Below, piece after piece: positions 4,613-12,881 of a stretch of DNA of 64,000 nt; the first letter of the stretch is position 1; the number at the start of each line of letters is the position of its first letter. The translations under genes and the position numbers were made by a program. Origin of the DNA: Owenia fusiformis (taxonomy: Eukaryota; Annelida; Polychaeta; Sabellida; Oweniidae); contig CAIIXF020000005.1 in assembly GCA_903813345.2 (NCBI GenBank), positions 35,531,375 to 35,595,374 of the forward strand. Reading direction: 5' to 3'. Under the pieces are notes generated by a model. That model did no database searches. It saw nothing but the letters and a program-made list of their open reading frames with translations, and was not told the DNA's origin.

Positions 4613-7600
4613 TTATTCTCCTATAAAGTTTGGCTTTCTTTTTTCTTTGAAAGCTTTCAAGGCTTCAATTCTGTCTTTAGTTGGTATTACCTGAAACATA
4701 AAAAAGATTATTGGTAAAAGGAGAGACAGTAATACATGTAATACTGTAGACATGGAAAAATATGCTGTGTTTTAATTTACACTATATTCGCAGGGGGTAT
4801 TGCGTGCGCGTAAATATAAAGCCGTGTAATTAATCATCTCAATTGAAAATTGTCTCTAAGAATACATAATAGGAGAGGTTCTGAAATATAAATTATATAA
4901 AGTTTTAGAATTATAGAAAATCATAGAACAGTGATAATAGGACCAATCATTATATACATGTGTCTTACATACATTGATTTTATGTTTGTAAGTGCTATAT
5001 TTTCTCACAGCACATAGAATTTTATCTGATGATTTGAAATGTAAAACTGGAAATTAAATTCTCTGTTTCAATTTCTTTATTTTCTTTATGTTGTTAAGTT
5101 ATGTTTATGTTGAAAAATACAAGGAATACATATACAGTAAAACCTGTCTTAGTGAACACCTGTCTCCAGTGGACACCCTTCCTCCACACATGCTCAACTG
5201 ACTTCTGTTTAAATTACCCTCTCTGCAGTGAACACCTACCAACACTGAACGTTATTTTTCTCAGCAAAAAAATGTTCAATGTACACAGGTTCTACTATAC
5301 TGTACAATATCATGTGGAAGACACCCTAAAGGGCATGTTCCTAGTTTGTACCTGAGCATAACATAGTTGTTCATATTGTAGACCAGAGTCAAGGTCCACT
5401 TCAATCCCTCTGTTTATTGCAACTTTCGCCATCTTAACACCAACAGGGCCCTGGAATAAAGAACAAGGTTATTTACATGTGCAATATGATAGCTAATTAT
5501 AAAAAGAGAGGTTAAATAAAGATTGGTATTGTGGTTTATCAGGTTTATGTGGTTTATATTATCCTGATTATGAAACCCCATGAACCCCCATAAAGCATAA
5601 ATCAGAGAATGATGTTCTTTAACAAGATTTATTTTTACAACAATTAACATCTGGGAATATAAAGAATTACAAAACATTTGATGAAATATCATACTTATTG
5701 AAAGTTTCATCCGACAAAGTTCTTACCAATCATGGGATAATCTAATTTACCTTATAACAAAGACACGTAAAATGGTATTTAGAAAATACTGGACTAATAA
5801 AACTCATGTCTTACATTAGGCAAGATCTCCTGCGCTAACTCAACAGCTCTTTGATAAGCAGCGTCACCAGCCTCATTCTGGGGTACGGAATGGTTCACGA
5901 GTCCTATTTTACATGCCTCATCCCCGTCTATGACCCTCGCAGTGAATATTAACTCCTTTGCGATTGCTGGACCTACTAGGCGAGGAAGCCTCTGAGTCCC
6001 ACCTGGAAAATACACACAGAAAACATTTTATGATTAGAACATAAGAATCATACATGAATTTGAGTATATTCAAAATTAAATCTAACTAAAAAAAATCATA
6101 ATGTCTTATGATGTTTGCAGCAATTAATAGGCTCACATGAGGATTCCTTCAGTTTTGCACTTTTGCTGTTTCAATTGATTTTGATGACAACAAGTTGATT
6201 TTTCCAAAACAAGGCAAAGTTTAGATAAACAGCCTGCTTTAACAGAAACATTTATATCAACATACTTTTGATTGAAAAAGCATGGCACATCTATGAAGAG
6301 AAAATTCCAAACTATTTTTAACAATTCCAATAAGCAGTGAAAATCAGACATAGAAGGAACTACTCTTGGGCAATATTTAAATGTTGACCAAAATATCTTT
6401 TTTTTTATTTCCAAACCCTCTTCACCATAATACTATCTAACATTTTTTTCCTACAGTGTGATAAAAGTTAATAAAAAACACTGACAAAAGCCAACTGACT
6501 TTACCCCCCCCCCCCCCCTCCTCAAAGTGATTAATTATATTTGAAGGTGAACATTGGAATATCAACCTTCCCTCTGATAACCATGATGAATTCTTGTAGT
6601 ATATCACAGTATCAAAAGCAACTGTTTTACAGTACTTTGAACTTTCGGTGTATACTACATAGTACATATAGCAAACACCTTTGTTTTTATTGGTGCTAAA
6701 TTTTACTGAATGAGCATTTTCAAAGTTTAGCCAAGATTTAATTTCAATGAAGATATTTCACTATGATTTAAATTTCAATGAACGTTATGTAAGCCAATAA
6801 ATAGCAGAAGGCATTAACATGCAAAATGTTACCACCTACCATTTGTTACAGACACCAAAGGCCAACCATCGGACACCATCCACAAAAAACAATATGTTAC
6901 CATTTGTAGTGGTGACATAAAAATTTAAAAACAGTGATATTTTCACCTGCCTGTATATACTAAACTAGATATAGAATAACATAGAAACATGCTCCCTACC
7001 TCCACCTGGGATGATACCCAGTCTAGTTTCAACTACACCCATCTTGGCATTAGAAGCAGCAATCCTTAAGTCAGCGGCCATCGCCATTTCTAGCCCCCCA
7101 CCTAAAGCAGCGCCATCCATAGCTACTATGACAGGCATGGGCAGATATGTGAATTCATTAATTACCTGACGTCCCTTTGCCACAAAAGGCCCAACCTCAC
7201 CCTCTGTCATTTTAGCTCTCTCTTTTAAATCTGCGCCTACAATTAAATATCCCAAACTCCTAAGTTGTGTGGTTTAATCAACATACCTCCACCTGGTATT
7301 ATACCAAGTCTAGTTTCAACGACACCCATCTTGGCTACTGAAGATGCTGTTCTTAAATCTGCCGCCATCGCCATTTCTAACCCTCCCCCTAAGGCAGCTC
7401 CATCTATTGCTGCAATAACGGGCATGGGGAGGTAGGTGAAATCATTAACTATGCGTCGTAAGTTCGCAACAAATGGTCCAATTTCAGCCTCAGTCATTGT
7501 TGCCCTTTCCTTTAAGTCAGCACCTAGAATGTGATGAGAAAGTGTCCTTATCCTAAACATGGGGTTTCAAAATGTGAAATGGTAATCAGTGATCTCCCTA

Positions 7601-10600
7601 GCATTAAAGCAAGTGGGCACAGCACCCACGTGAGATTTTGAAAATAGGCTTGCACCCACCTGAAAATCCATTTGCACCCACTTGAAAATGAGAAAAATCA
7701 TGAAAAATTTGCATATTTTGACCAATTTTGGCCTGATTGTGAAAATGAGAATTTTGCACCCACCTGACTAAAAATCCTGGTGAGATCACTGGTAATGTTC
7801 TCATAGAAAATATAATACAGGATGGCATAAAAATGCCATTCTACTAATTTTAGAATAACCCTTGTCAGGAAATGAATCTTCTTGATTTTGTTGGAGTTGG
7901 TGTTTAAAATAGGTGGGATGTAAGTTTGTTAGAGGAAACACAGACTTTCTAAAATGCCCATCATGGTGTAAATGACTTTGAATTTAGAAAAAAACACTTC
8001 TCACAAGGTATGACGTTGTACAGAAACTGTTTGATCTCTAAATGACAAAGTCATTTCAATAAATATTTTCCACTGACAGACTACTTATACACATTGAACA
8101 ATGAACATGCTATCCACTTCAGAAGAATCAAGATGAATCCTTCATTTTTGACAAAGTTATTCAAAAAATAGTTTGTAGAAAGATCCTTAATCTAAACATG
8201 GGGTATATAGGATATATGTAACATGTGGAAGGTGAATAGATAAAACTGTACAGTCCTATCAAAATGATGAAAATACAGTTTTTCGACGATAATTTTAAAA
8301 CTATAGTTCAGTAATCATCAATAATAAAAATATAATTGCATTTAATAAACTGTTCAGCACTGACATCCTGAGCATTTGTATGTATTATATACATGTTATA
8401 TTATTATAAAAAAAACTAAGAATATTTGTACCTGCGCAGAAAATTCCAGGTGCGTCACTTCTCACTATAACAGCTCTCACTTTCTTGTCATATTTCACAG
8501 TCTGAAGGGCTTCATCCATCTTTAATACACAAAGAATGGAGCTTTATGTACAGAAGGGGGAAGGGACACTTACATGTGTAATGTACAGAGGGAGGGGACA
8601 TTTACATGTATAATGTACAGAGAAGGGGGACATTTACATGTGCAATGTACAGAGAAGGGAGGGGAACATTTACATGTATAATGTACAGAGAAGGGGGACA
8701 TTTACATGTGCAATGTACAGAGAAGGGAGGGGAACATTTCTATGTGTAATATACAGAGAAGGGAGGTGAACATTTCCATGTGTAATGTACAGAGAAGAGA
8801 GGGGAACATTTCCATGTGTAATGTACAGAGAAGGGAGGGGAACATTTACATGTGTAATGTACAGAGAAGGGAGGGGAACATTTAGATGTGTAATGTACAG
8901 AGAAGGAAGGGGAACATTTACATGTGTAATGAACAGAGATGGGAGGGGAACATTTACATGTGTAATGTACAGAGAAGAGAGGGGACGATTTACATGTATA
9001 ATGTACAGAGAAGGGGGACATTTACATGTGCAATGTACAGAGAAGGGAGGGGAACATTTACATGCAAATGATACATACTGTACAGAGGAGAACATTTACA
9101 TGTGTAATATACAGAGAAGAGAGGGGAACATTTCTATGTGTAATATACAGAGAAGGGAGGGGAACATTTACATGTGTAATGTACAGAGAGAGGGAAGGGG
9201 AAGTGTAATGCACAGAGAAGGGAGGGGAACATTTACAGGGAGGTGAACATTTCCATGTGTAATGTACAGAGAAGAGAGGGGAACATTTACATGTGTAATG
9301 TACAGAGAAGGAAGGGGAACATTTACATGTGTAATGAACAGAGATGGGAGGGGAACATTTACATGTGTAATGTACAGAGAAGAGAGGGGAACATTTACAT
9401 GTGTAATGTACAGAGAAGGGAGGGGAACATTTAGATGTGTAATGTACAGAGAAGGAAGGGGAACATTTACATGTGTAATGAACAGAGATGGGAGGGGAAC
9501 ATTTACATGTGTAATGTACAGAGAAGGGAGGGGAACATTTACATGTGTAATGTACAGAGAAGGGAGGGGAACATTTAGATGTGTAATGTACAGAGAAGGA
9601 AGGGGAACATTTACATGTGTAATGGACAGAGATGGGAGGGGAACATTTACATGTGTAATGTACAGAGAAGAGAGGGGAACATTTACATGTGTAATGTACA
9701 GAGAAGGGAGGGGAACATTTAGATGTGTAATGTACAGAGAAGGAAGGGGAACATTTACATGTGTAATGAACAGAGATGGGAGGGGAACATTTACATGTGT
9801 AATGTACAGAGAAGAGAGGGGAACATTTACATGTGTAATGTACAGAGAAGGAAGGGGAACATTTACATGTGGGAACATTTACATGTATAATGTAAAGAGA
9901 AGGGAGGGGAACATTTACACAAAGGGGAAAAACATGTATAAACATCTGCATGTGTGATATACAAAGATGTCAGGCAACATTTAGACATTACATGTATATG
10001 CATGTACAGGATGAACGGGAAACATCGTCATATGTTATATACTTTATGAAATGTCAACCACTTTTAATTATAACCAAATGCATTTTGCTTTAAATATGTA
10101 TGACTTAATACTTCATTTAGTTCAGTGCAAAGGGCAATTTTCAGTTTGGAGAACCAATTTCATCTGCATATTTCGAAGTTATCAATGTCACCAAAGACTT
10201 TCATATTTTTACGTATTGTAGATTTAAATGTCCTCTTTTTGGGGACATTGGTAACATCAAAATATGCAGATGACTTTGCTTCTCCAAATCGAAAATCGTC
10301 TTTGGTTTTCCAAACCAAAAATCGTCCTTTAGATTTGACTTACCAATTTGAGGAGATTTCTACTAAATGCATTCTTGGCCTTTGGGCGGTTCATGGCCAT
10401 CACGGCAATACCTGAAGACAACAAAATATTATGTTAATCTAAATTTCTTTATGTAACTAACTTTTAATGTTATCAGTCAAACAAACTGAACAAATCACAA
10501 ACAAACCAAAATTAAAACATATATCTCACTGGCGGATCTGAGGGGGGGGGCTGCCCCCCCCTTGGGTGGGCCTTGAAAAAAAATTGGGCCCAAAAAAAGG

Positions 10601-12881
10601 CCTTGAGGCCCCAAAAGTGGGCCTTTTTGGTCATTACTGAGCCTTTCAAGGCCTTATTTTTTAATTTCAGGCCAAATTTTAAAGAAAATAGGCCTCAAAT
10701 TTGGGCCCACTTTTGGCTTTATTTTTATTTTTCTCTGACCTAAAATTTGGGCCCCCCCCCCTTGTTGGTTCCAAGATCCGCCCCTGTATCTATTCTCTAA
10801 AAAGTTGGAAAATTCGTGGTTTGCCTCATCGCTTTTTACCAAATTTGACTCTTCGCTCACTTTTATTATCACACGCCCCCCACCTAACACAAAATCCTGG
10901 ATCCGCCCGTGATTCTGTATTATAAATATGAAGCTGCATAGCAACTGGTTTTAGTAAACTACACTCACACTCACTCTTTGGGTCATCCTCACTCATACAG
11001 GTAAGAGATACATGTTCCAAAGACAAAGTGAGTGTTTGGATTCCTAAGCTTATAGTCAAAACAGTAATGTTTGTGAGTACTTTGAATTTAAAAAATAAGC
11101 AATCAAATAACCAAATTCAAACAATTTATGTAAAAATAGAAACATATATTTATCCTAACTTTTGTTTATTTTAGTTTGTTTTCTAGTTTAGCTATCATAT
11201 CTGTGTCCTCGTATATTTTGATACTTCTCTGCCATGCACATGCTATCTATTGCAAGACTAACGCCTGGTGTAACCGTCACCATGTTATTCGGTGTTTTTT
11301 AAGTAGCGCAAGGATCCTGCCATGACCGTGGCAGTGTTATTTTGTATGCCTGGTATAACCGTGACAACGCTGTATTATATTGCAAGGCCTGTCATGACCG
11401 TGGTAATGTAAAAGCCCCGTATGACCGTGACAATGGTTGCATGGCCTGTCATGACCATGGTAATGTTAAAGCCCAGTATGACCGTGACAACGCTTGTAAA
11501 GCCTGCCATGACCGTGACAATGCTATGTTATATTGCCGTATATATTATATGACCGTCATAATGATTGAAAGGCCTGTCATTACCGTCAGAATGTTAAAGC
11601 CTGTCATGACCGTGGTAAGGTTAAAGCCTGATATGACCGTAACAATGCTATATTATATTGCAAGGCCTGTCATGGCCGTGGTAATGTTCAAGCCTGATAT
11701 GACCGTTACAAGGCTTGCAAGGCCTGTCATGACCGTGACAATGCTATATTATATTGCAAGGCCTGTCATGACCGTGGTAATGTTAAAGCCCCGTATGACC
11801 GTGACAATAGTTGCAAGGCCTCTCATGACCGTGGTTGTATTTAAAGTAGCATGAGAACATCGTAATGACAATTTTTCTTCGTGTTTAACTACCTTAAATG
11901 TAAATAAAGACTACTAAAAATGTGTATTAATTTCACGACGAAACCCTAATTTTTACTCATAAATAATTTTCGAACAAACTATATCTCTACTCTCATTCAA
12001 GGAGCTTCGATTCGAAAGCATATACTTTCTATAATGATCAATTAATAAGATTTATCCATAAAAAATACCAACAGCAACGGGCAAAACATGAAGGTCATTA
12101 ATGTCATATAAAGGTTGCGGTCGCGCCAGGCTTACACGATTACACTACCACGGTCATGGCAGGCATTTTAATATAATACAGCATTGTCGCGGTTATACCA
12201 GGCTTTCACGATAACATTACCACGGTCATGGCAGGATCCTTGCGGTACTTAAAAAACACCGAATAACATGGTGACGGTTACGCCAGGCGTTAGTCTTGCA
12301 ACAGATAGGGTCTCCTGCCATGTTATTTTCGGAAAAATTAACATGGCTGAAACTCCCTAAATTACAAAAGGCCACAGCTTTGCTGCACATTATACATTAC
12401 TATCTGAAATATACAAAAGTTAGGATAAATATAAATGTTTCTATTTTTACACAAACTGTTTCAATATGGTCATTTGATTTGATTTGATTCAAAGTACTCA
12501 CAAACATTACTGTTTTGACTGTAGAGAACCCCATAGACTAGAGGACCAATCGCCAAAAGAAACTTGATACGACTTCCTGTACACTAAAAATAATCCACTA
12601 GACTTACGTGGATTTTGAATTGTTCATAGACAAAAAGGGGTGGGAATGAATAGATTCTGATCTGAATGAATTCAATTGAATTGTCAACGATGAACTAAAT
12701 TGAATACTTATTTTCACCTATGTTGCAAGGCTGACAACTAACCTTCACTTTCTCCATCGAGATACCTTAGCTCAAACTCACTAAAACTTGCATCTGCACT
12801 GAATAATCTCTGACCTGAACCCAGATATTTCGTTAAATATCTAGAGAAATTTGGACTTTTGACTAGAAGTTTGAGGGCCAT
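4613..12881 (-). CDS. AUH: Methylglutaconyl-CoA hydratase, mitochondrial (AU RNA-binding enoyl-CoA hydratase), complete
   Basis: A crotonase-fold enzyme of the mitochondrial matrix that hydrates 3-methylglutaconyl-CoA to HMG-CoA in leucine degradation. Coding exons in transcript order: 12881-12743, 10411-10344, 8519-8432, then 7523-7287 OR 7236-7000, then 6002-5815, 5450-5352 and 4690-4613. With one copy of the duplicated exon this gives 897 nt, or 298 residues plus stop; human AUH is 339. All junctions are GT/AG and every split codon resolves. Residues 1-30 are basic, rich in hydroxylated and hydrophobic residues, with no acidic residue before D30, as in a mitochondrial presequence. Then come [28 protein letters not shown] (acyl-CoA and oxyanion region), ALGGGLEMA and [14 protein letters not shown] (the two catalytic Glu), GGTQRLPR and the C-terminal helix [14 protein letters not shown]. 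Strong alignment to remembered human AUH throughout. Confidence 0.95.
5135..5302. mobile_element. Pogo/Tigger-like MITE in the last AUH intron
   Basis: Flanked by TA and beginning CAGTAAAACCTGTCTTAG. It ends in the imperfect inverse with AGGTTCTACTA...ACTG before TA. About 168 bp, non-coding. TA target sites and CAGT-AACCT termini suit the pogo/Tigger branch of Tc1/mariner. Relatives lie at 31654-31840, 39863-40030 and 58888-59242. Confidence 0.6.
6506..6522. repeat. Poly-C tract in AUH intron
   Basis: A run of about 17 C on the plus strand in the intron downstream of alternative exon 4; G-run on the transcript. Similar C runs occur at 19809-19823 and 24706-24714. Confidence 0.8.
7000..7236 (-). 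other. AUH: AUH alternative exon 4, copy B (transcript-distal)
   Basis: 237 nt, phase 1 at both ends. Acceptor TTGTAG at 7242-7237 and donor GTAGGG from 6999. Encodes from [20 protein letters not shown] to GIIPGG, with all catalytic residues intact. A hand count gives about 55 nucleotide differences from copy A out of 237, most of them synonymous, so both copies look selected as coding. It is closer to human AUH ([19 protein letters not shown]). Only 50 nt separate it from copy A. Confidence 0.9.
7287..7523 (-). other. AUH: AUH alternative exon 4, copy A (transcript-proximal)
   Basis: 237 nt, phase 1 at both ends. Acceptor TTCTAG at 7529-7524 and donor GTATGT from 7286. Encodes from [20 protein letters not shown] to GIIPGG. 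It carries the oxyanion/CoA segment GADLKE and both catalytic Glu (GGGLE and VETRL), so it could form an active enzyme. It differs from copy B at 14 of about 79 residues, mainly in the helix after the GADLKE motif and in the TASSVAK segment, where B reads IAASNAK. It is somewhat farther than copy B from human AUH. Confidence 0.9.
7587..7791 (+). mobile_element. CAGTGATCTCC-ended MITE, 5-bp target duplication
   Basis: 205 bp with termini CAGTGATCTCC and its imperfect inverse GAGATCACTG, flanked by direct GTAAT at 7582-7586 and 7792-7796. Interior has repeated GCACCCAC blocks. The CAGTG end plus 5-bp duplication fits a hAT-type element with short target sites, though Transib also makes 5-bp duplications. 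It lies 63 bp upstream of alternative exon A of AUH. Confidence 0.8.
8548..9925. repeat. 36-bp minisatellite with 144-bp higher-order period, AUH intron 2
   Basis: About 38 units of a 36-bp repeat, core GTACAGAGAAGGGAGGGG followed by AACATTTACATGTG. Since 36 is a multiple of three, frames stay open on both strands, giving long artefactual ORFs of repeated 12-residue motifs; these are not genes. Between roughly 9340 and 9870 units recur in sets of four (variants AGAAGAGAGG, ATTTAGATG, GAAGGAAGG and ACAGAGATGGG), a 144-bp higher-order repeat. Units near 8548-8720 are more degenerate. On the AUH transcript strand the array is a series of C/T-rich tracts. Confidence 0.95.
10530..10795. repeat. 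GGCGGATC-ended G/C-run MITE
   Basis: Starts CACTGGCGGATCTGAGGGG and ends CCAAGATCCGCCCCTG, with internal poly-G and poly-C runs and repeated GGCCTTGA or TTGGGCC blocks. A fragment of the same family follows at about 10865-10912 (GGATCCGCCCGTG). Other copies lie at 15366-15590 and 57957-58168. It looks like a hAT-type non-autonomous element common in marine invertebrates. Confidence 0.65.
11054..12520. mobile_element. Long palindromic DNA element in AUH intron 1
   Basis: The outer ends are inverse copies: AGTCAAAACAGTAATGTTTG from 11054 matches the inverse ending at 12520. Inverted similarity continues inward: TATTTATCCTAACTTTTGT near 11150 pairs with the inverse near 12410, and the block at 11250-11335 (GTAACCGTCACCATGTTATT) pairs with 12225-12300. 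The middle carries a tandem array at 11342-11850. No transposase is visible, so it is non-autonomous. Part of the right arm (about 12310-12420) resembles the smaller palindrome at 59836-60230. Confidence 0.8.
11342..11850 (+). repeat. ATGACCGTG-rich tandem array inside the palindromic element
   Basis: Irregular repeats built on TGTCATGACCGTGGTAATGT and TATGACCGTGACAATG, some followed by CTATATTATATTGCAAGGCC. The open frame across it (170 codons) consists of [17 protein letters not shown]-type repeats and is not a credible gene. Confidence 0.75.
12743..12881 (-). other. AUH: AUH first coding exon with mitochondrial presequence
   Basis: Encodes 46 residues starting [20 protein letters not shown] and ending [10 protein letters not shown], followed by donor GTTAGT. 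Basic residues (K4, K8, R14, K18, R25) and no acids before D30 fit an amphipathic matrix-targeting sequence. [11 protein letters not shown] aligns with the stretch just before the crotonase domain in vertebrate AUH. Confidence 0.85.

Follow-up and report, generated by a model that had tools for sequence, protein, structure and literature searches.

Three precedents are in print for tandemly duplicated exons of mitochondrial enzymes, namely those of COQ2, OGDH, and the oyster alternative oxidase (AOX). In nematodes, flatworms, annelids, and molluscs, the mutually exclusive exons a and e of COQ2 constitute the rhodoquinone switch (excerpts of PMC7434440 and PMC12403961). Leu/Ser and Phe/Ala residues were reported for the COQ2 e and a forms, and deletion of either exon in C. 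elegans shifts the quinone that is made (excerpts of PMC7434440). Hence, such an exon arrangement can alter the product of a mitochondrial enzyme. In vertebrate OGDH, the exon pair 4a/4b confers Ca2+ sensitivity (excerpts of PMC7969005). In oyster AOX, exon 10 is duplicated and one copy is minor under normal conditions; the same source cites tandem exon duplicates in approximately 10% of human, fly, and worm genes (excerpts of PMC5589949).

Here we describe a gene for AUH (3-methylglutaconyl-CoA hydratase) of the annelid Owenia fusiformis, in which the catalytic-core exon was duplicated in tandem long ago; judged from its sequence, the gene would probably use either copy per transcript to give two 298-residue isoforms. 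In the open-licence literature, surveyed mostly through titles and the beginnings of abstracts, we found no description of alternative catalytic exon pairs in AUH or ECHS1; the original prediction likewise knew of none for AUH. Nor was a description of a duplicated exon in human AUH found there. Among the matches listed, the sole paper concerning both AUH and mutually exclusive exons reports that human AUH has an alternate terminator in tumours (excerpts of PMC6902018). Mutually exclusive tandem exons as such are well known; their AUH and ECHS1 members appear to be new.

Results

Structure and identity of the AUH gene

The window, that is, the whole stretch of 64,000 nt that was analyzed, contains a complete AUH gene on its minus strand (12881-4613). 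Its parts are listed in the order of transcription, in window coordinates.

12743-12881, minus strand: exon 1, coding part with the start ATG, 139 nt; in-frame model, GT donor
10344-10411, minus strand: exon 2, 68 nt; in-frame model, splice ends
8432-8519, minus strand: exon 3, shared by the A and B forms on the 5' side, 88 nt; in-frame model, splice ends
7287-7523, minus strand: catalytic exon A of the alternative pair, phase 1/1, 237 nt; contains the two catalytic Glu and reads GADLKERAT...IIPGGG; tblastn E 5.5e-49
7237-7286, minus strand: intron separating A from B, 50 nt
7000-7236, minus strand: catalytic exon B of the alternative pair, phase 1/1, 237 nt; contains the two catalytic Glu and reads GADLKERAK...IIPGGG
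5815-6002, minus strand: exon 5, shared by the A and B forms on the 3' side, 188 nt; in-frame model, splice ends
5352-5450, minus strand: exon 6, 99 nt; in-frame model, splice ends
4613-4690, minus strand: last coding exon with the stop, 78 nt; in-frame model, splice ends

All introns are of the GT...AG type, and their lengths are 2331, 1824, 908, 50, 997, 364, and 661 nt. The protein was assigned to the crotonase superfamily by a Pfam ECH_1 match (E 2.5e-60). In the PDB comparison it was closer to AUH than to any other crotonase; the best solved relative was human AUH (1hzd, E 5.6e-107 over residues 34-298) and the runner-up reached only 4.1e-64. The expectation that either copy yields a 298-residue enzyme resembling AUH held. 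When the genome was searched at the protein level, the AUH exons were found at one place only and everything else was at most 51% identical, although the assembly has gaps and the best candidates alone were scored, so that a second AUH copy is not strictly excluded. Erythrocruorin linker domains (PF16915) scored above the cut-off in this genome, which is indicative of an annelid. The AU-rich RNA-binding lysines of AUH presumably lie in the upstream helix encoded by exons 2-3, outside A and B.

The introns also contain repeats. A minisatellite with a 36-nt unit repeated about 37 times occupies 8546-9871 of the window, between exons 2 and 3. Intron 1 contains an inverted repeat (11243-12308) whose 169-nt arms are 91% complementary and enclose diverged tandem units; it may be a non-coding mobile element.

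Divergence and constraint of exons A and B

Two 237-nt exons of phase 1/1 with AG and GT ends had been predicted, and they were recovered exactly, A at 7523-7287 and B at 7236-7000. In either case 295 nt of coding sequence precede the exon, and the exon starts in phase 1. They are adjacent, homologous, and compatible in phase and length, with AG/GT splice sites of their own. In a repeat search, the pair appeared as a 77% match over 247 nt with the two units 287 nt apart, and tblastn with both cassettes detected no copies beyond A and B in the 64-kb window.

The copies differ at 55 of 237 nt, of which 7, 7, and 41 fall at codon positions 1, 2, and 3, respectively. At the protein level 66 of 80 residues are identical and 14 differ, and neither copy contains a stop or an indel. 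By the NG86 method, dN was 0.10 and dS was 1.44, a ratio of about 0.07. Because 41 of the 55 differences are at third positions and dN is so far below dS, it is well supported by the sequence that both copies have long been kept as protein under purifying selection, as had been proposed from the small number of residue changes. For an unconstrained copy, dN/dS would be expected to lie far above approximately 0.07.

These values bear on two alternative explanations. First, the pair could be an assembly error or a product of collapsed haplotypes. We found no evidence in support of this, and the 23% divergence concentrated at third positions, which greatly exceeds chance, the adjacency of the copies with separate splice sites, and the single genomic place of the AUH exons make its probability negligible. 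Second, only one copy could be in real use, the other being a decoy or a relic that is seldom spliced in. The acceptor of B looks weaker than that of A by eye, and the oyster AOX offers a case in which one copy is minor in normal conditions (excerpts of PMC5589949). Nevertheless, with dS of about 1.4, dN of 0.10, and neither stop nor indel, a disused copy is not expected to hold 66 of 80 residues, and this explanation is very unlikely.

Nine of the 14 differing residues are located at 107-126, in the region after GADLKE where clustering had been anticipated; two are at 136/138 and three at 157-161. The GAD, GGGLE, and VETRLG motifs, whose catalytic role we assume from the crotonase family, are identical between A and B, and both predicted isoforms therefore contain them. 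Against 1hzd, A scored 109.8 bits (E 8.7e-31) and B 114.8 bits (E 2e-32), and their identities to human AUH were about equal (53/80 and 56/80). Since A and B share 66 of 80 residues with each other, the duplication seems to postdate the split between annelids and vertebrates, yet to be old. Judged by dN/dS, a copy that had been without function for half that time would be expected to lose its protein sequence. At the 14 sites, human AUH agrees with A at 3, with B at 6, and with neither at 5. Among bacterial relatives (12 loci, 11 of which yielded rows), A was matched in 19 and B in 16 of 117 site comparisons, giving no pointer to which copy is ancestral. No clear functional signature emerged at these sites from either human AUH or the bacterial relatives.

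A possible barrier to joining exon A with exon B

Translation models with A only, B only, both, and neither gave 298, 298, 377, and 219 aa, respectively, all in frame. Inclusion of both exons is thus not barred by the reading frame, 237 being a multiple of 3; that it would preserve the frame had been foreseen. Non-exclusive use is accordingly an alternative to be weighed: some transcripts would contain A and B together and encode an enlarged or regulatory protein, and the 50-nt intron between them does have proper GT and AG ends.

This intron is nevertheless short by comparison. The shortest of 78 intron estimates from elsewhere in the genome was 122 nt. Seventy of these came from adjacent exon matches in four family searches, with profile positions abutting within 6 (a few are counted twice, one gene being on two contigs), and the PF02771 search added 8 with a minimum of 142 nt. 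We also inspected 56 matches, picked from 215 for their length or stops, for short introns hidden inside; an excess of at least 24 nt was found in four (24, 36, 171, and 285 nt), and the two smallest values indicate that rare short introns are possible in this genome. Approximately 50 nt is the steric limit from the 5' splice site to the branch point (excerpts of PMC7969005), so that the AUH intron, well under the shortest of the 78 estimates, lies in its full length at this threshold, and any branch point in it necessarily falls within that distance. The only yTnAy branch-point candidates within it are at +9 and +44. If the intron were retained, translation would meet a TAA in frame 13 codons past the last Gly of the cassette, at nt 42-44 of the intron. 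Furthermore, a second GADLKE-to-IPGGG segment would double the core of a compact fold, and damage would be expected. Considering both the intron and the fold, we regard transcripts containing A and B together as highly improbable.

Splicing from A to B being unlikely, given the 50-nt intron against the 122-nt minimum and the steric threshold of about 50 nt, each transcript would contain A or B. In the mechanism that we propose, A and B would not be joined, since so short an intron could not accommodate both a donor and a usable branch point; exon 3 would be spliced to either of them and the chosen copy then to exon 5. Exclusive use of A or B is likely, judged from these sequence features. Of the original prediction, the duplicated catalytic exon is well supported, whereas its mutual exclusivity is supported indirectly, by the 50-nt intron, the steric threshold, and the expected damage to the core. 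The acceptor of B has a purine-interrupted tract and two AGs shortly upstream, and lacks a well-placed consensus branch point. Owing to this weaker-looking acceptor, B could be the minor form.

A second case in ECHS1

An ECH_1 profile search revealed adjacent matches to one profile segment on contig C9, where the stretch 32936500-32946000 (L001) contains an ECHS1 gene with two tandem exon pairs at L001:2790-4420.

L001 2790-2908: ECHS1 exon 1a
L001 2989-3116: ECHS1 exon 1b, 80 nt from 1a
L001 3414-3513: ECHS1 exon 2a
L001 4321-4420: ECHS1 exon 2b, 807 nt from 2a

The gene was identified by PDB enoyl-CoA hydratase chains, several of them named mitochondrial (E <=2.5e-116 for the 1b-2b form and <=1.1e-107 for the 1a-2a form). 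Together the pairs span the GAD oxyanion motif to IPG, the segment that a single exon covers in AUH. All four combinations with one exon of each pair were open and in frame, the 1a forms having 294 aa and the 1b forms 297 aa. In contrast to these, the double inclusions that were translated (1a+1b with 2b, and 2a+2b with 1b) were both frameshifted and then ran into stops. The remaining introns measure 264 to 1900 nt. Pair 2 showed dN 0.12 and dS 1.7. The divergence within pair 1 is greater (dN 0.35 over 39 aligned codons, dS saturated), and 1a is three residues shorter, in a region that we take to lie next to the acyl pocket.

Because AUH is only a distant paralogue of ECHS1, the duplications are taken as independent. 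As judged from the two gene models, exclusivity would be imposed by the short intron in AUH and by the reading frame instead in ECHS1, over the same segment. Taken together, the gene structures suggest that each of the two enzymes is produced in alternative forms through splicing in this worm.

The ECHS1 case also bears on whether the choice of exon matters. It might be neutral, both AUH isoforms being made without regulation for the same job. The catalytic Glu and the GAD/GGG motifs are unchanged between the copies, the split of human AUH over the 14 sites carries no clear functional signature, and tandem exon duplicates are common, at the proportion of genes cited above (excerpts of PMC5589949). 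However, the same segment was duplicated in two paralogous enzymes, and ECHS1 1a differs strongly from 1b, with its shortening by three residues. Neutral choice is possible on balance, but we think it somewhat unlikely. If exon choice does matter, the two AUH isoforms would keep the same catalytic glutamates in different surroundings, and the 14 changes, nine of them after GADLKE, may tune substrate fit or subunit packing.

Tandem exons in other families

Tandem pairs were counted as same-segment exon matches within gene clusters, after inspection, at E <=10 for crotonases and <=1 for the others. Among clusters with multiple hits, they were present in 2 of 13 for crotonases (one gene, on contigs C35 and C46, being counted twice), 2 of 11 for acyl-CoA dehydrogenases (PF00441), 0 of 5 for thiolases, and 0 of 12 for Cpn60/CCT. 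The excess over the controls was not significant (p 0.10), and no tandem pair was detected in 12 multi-hit clusters of PF02771. Aldehyde dehydrogenases (12 of 214 candidates scored) and aminotransferases (9 of 37 scored) were covered too partially to serve as controls. The crotonase gene on the small contigs C35 and C46 occurs there in opposite orientation with identical match scores, and the two are perhaps alternative haplotypes.

A thiolase cluster flagged as tandem was dropped, as it showed no DNA repeat. Two flagged overlaps in a Cpn60 cluster were also dropped, one being a recent 95% partial duplication and the other a match with two stops that overlapped its neighbour. In a chaperonin (Cpn60/CCT) exon at C1:58969300-58970300 (L017), a recent 159-nt tandem duplication (95%) covers part of the exon.

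The acyl-CoA dehydrogenase cases involve last exons; the names of the genes are our assumption. A presumed ACADL-like gene (C1:35555800-35565500; L002:7315-8000) has two last exons that are homologous to each other and contain a stop apiece; they differ at 35 of 159 nt (dN 0.08). A presumed ACAD10/11-like gene (C12:32320400-32332500, minus strand; L003+L004) has four last-exon copies with their own stops and one set of upstream exon matches; a tandem array of genes is the less likely reading here.

In the AOX of this worm, no repeat was observed in the 3' part of the gene examined. A UbiA-family gene (C2:21736300-21744200) contains an exon pair, with LTLNWG...DTIYSHQ in the first exon (L020:2290-2420) and MTFNWG...DTIYAHQ in the second (L020:5920-6053). 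These motifs fit Leu/Ser of the e form and Phe/Ala of the a form, respectively, so that the known rhodoquinone pair is present, and the gene is read from its sequence as COQ2.

Discussion

The COQ2 pair suggests that the worm can live with little oxygen. By analogy with COQ2 exon choice, the choice between A and B in AUH might be a regulated metabolic switch, which we infer more weakly than the exclusivity, and it is a guess that the AUH and ECHS1 exons could be part of the COQ2 switch itself. More broadly, AUH, ECHS1, and the ACADL-like and ACAD10/11-like genes could form, with COQ2 a/e, a splicing-controlled module. It would set acyl-CoA enzymes either for oxidation driven by oxygen or, in anoxic sediment, for an anaerobic branched-chain acyl-CoA pathway that possibly runs in reverse. 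We consider so extensive a module rather improbable. If it did exist, a single animal would have made the catalytic core of the crotonases a swappable cassette on two independent occasions.

The ECHS1 twin case adds interest to the AUH finding. If the catalytic core is indeed swapped in two related enzymes, splicing would act on the active sites of metabolic enzymes, as opposed to their regulatory parts or surface. AUH with its 50-nt intron and ECHS1 with its frame-shifting pairs offer a natural contrast between two routes to exclusivity. It also becomes a testable question whether a set of acyl-CoA enzymes is retooled by exon choice in facultatively anaerobic worms, as with COQ2.

Compared with described systems, human AUH (1hzd, 2zqq, and 2zqr) is the orthologous enzyme. 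The oyster AOX resembles the present case in being a spiralian mitochondrial enzyme in which a coding exon is duplicated, the isoforms have the same size, and both copies retain the functional residues, but its exons are terminal, its splicing is 3' alternative, and its stress switching was measured (excerpts of PMC5589949). In OGDH the branch points were mapped, whereas those in AUH are guessed. COQ2 is a different enzyme with a different fold, and its splicing, its effect on substrate, and its exon deletions were demonstrated, whereas use of the AUH pair is predicted from sequence. In both COQ2 and AUH, a core exon of a mitochondrial enzyme is tandemly duplicated, and the swapping by splicing that COQ2 undergoes is predicted for AUH.
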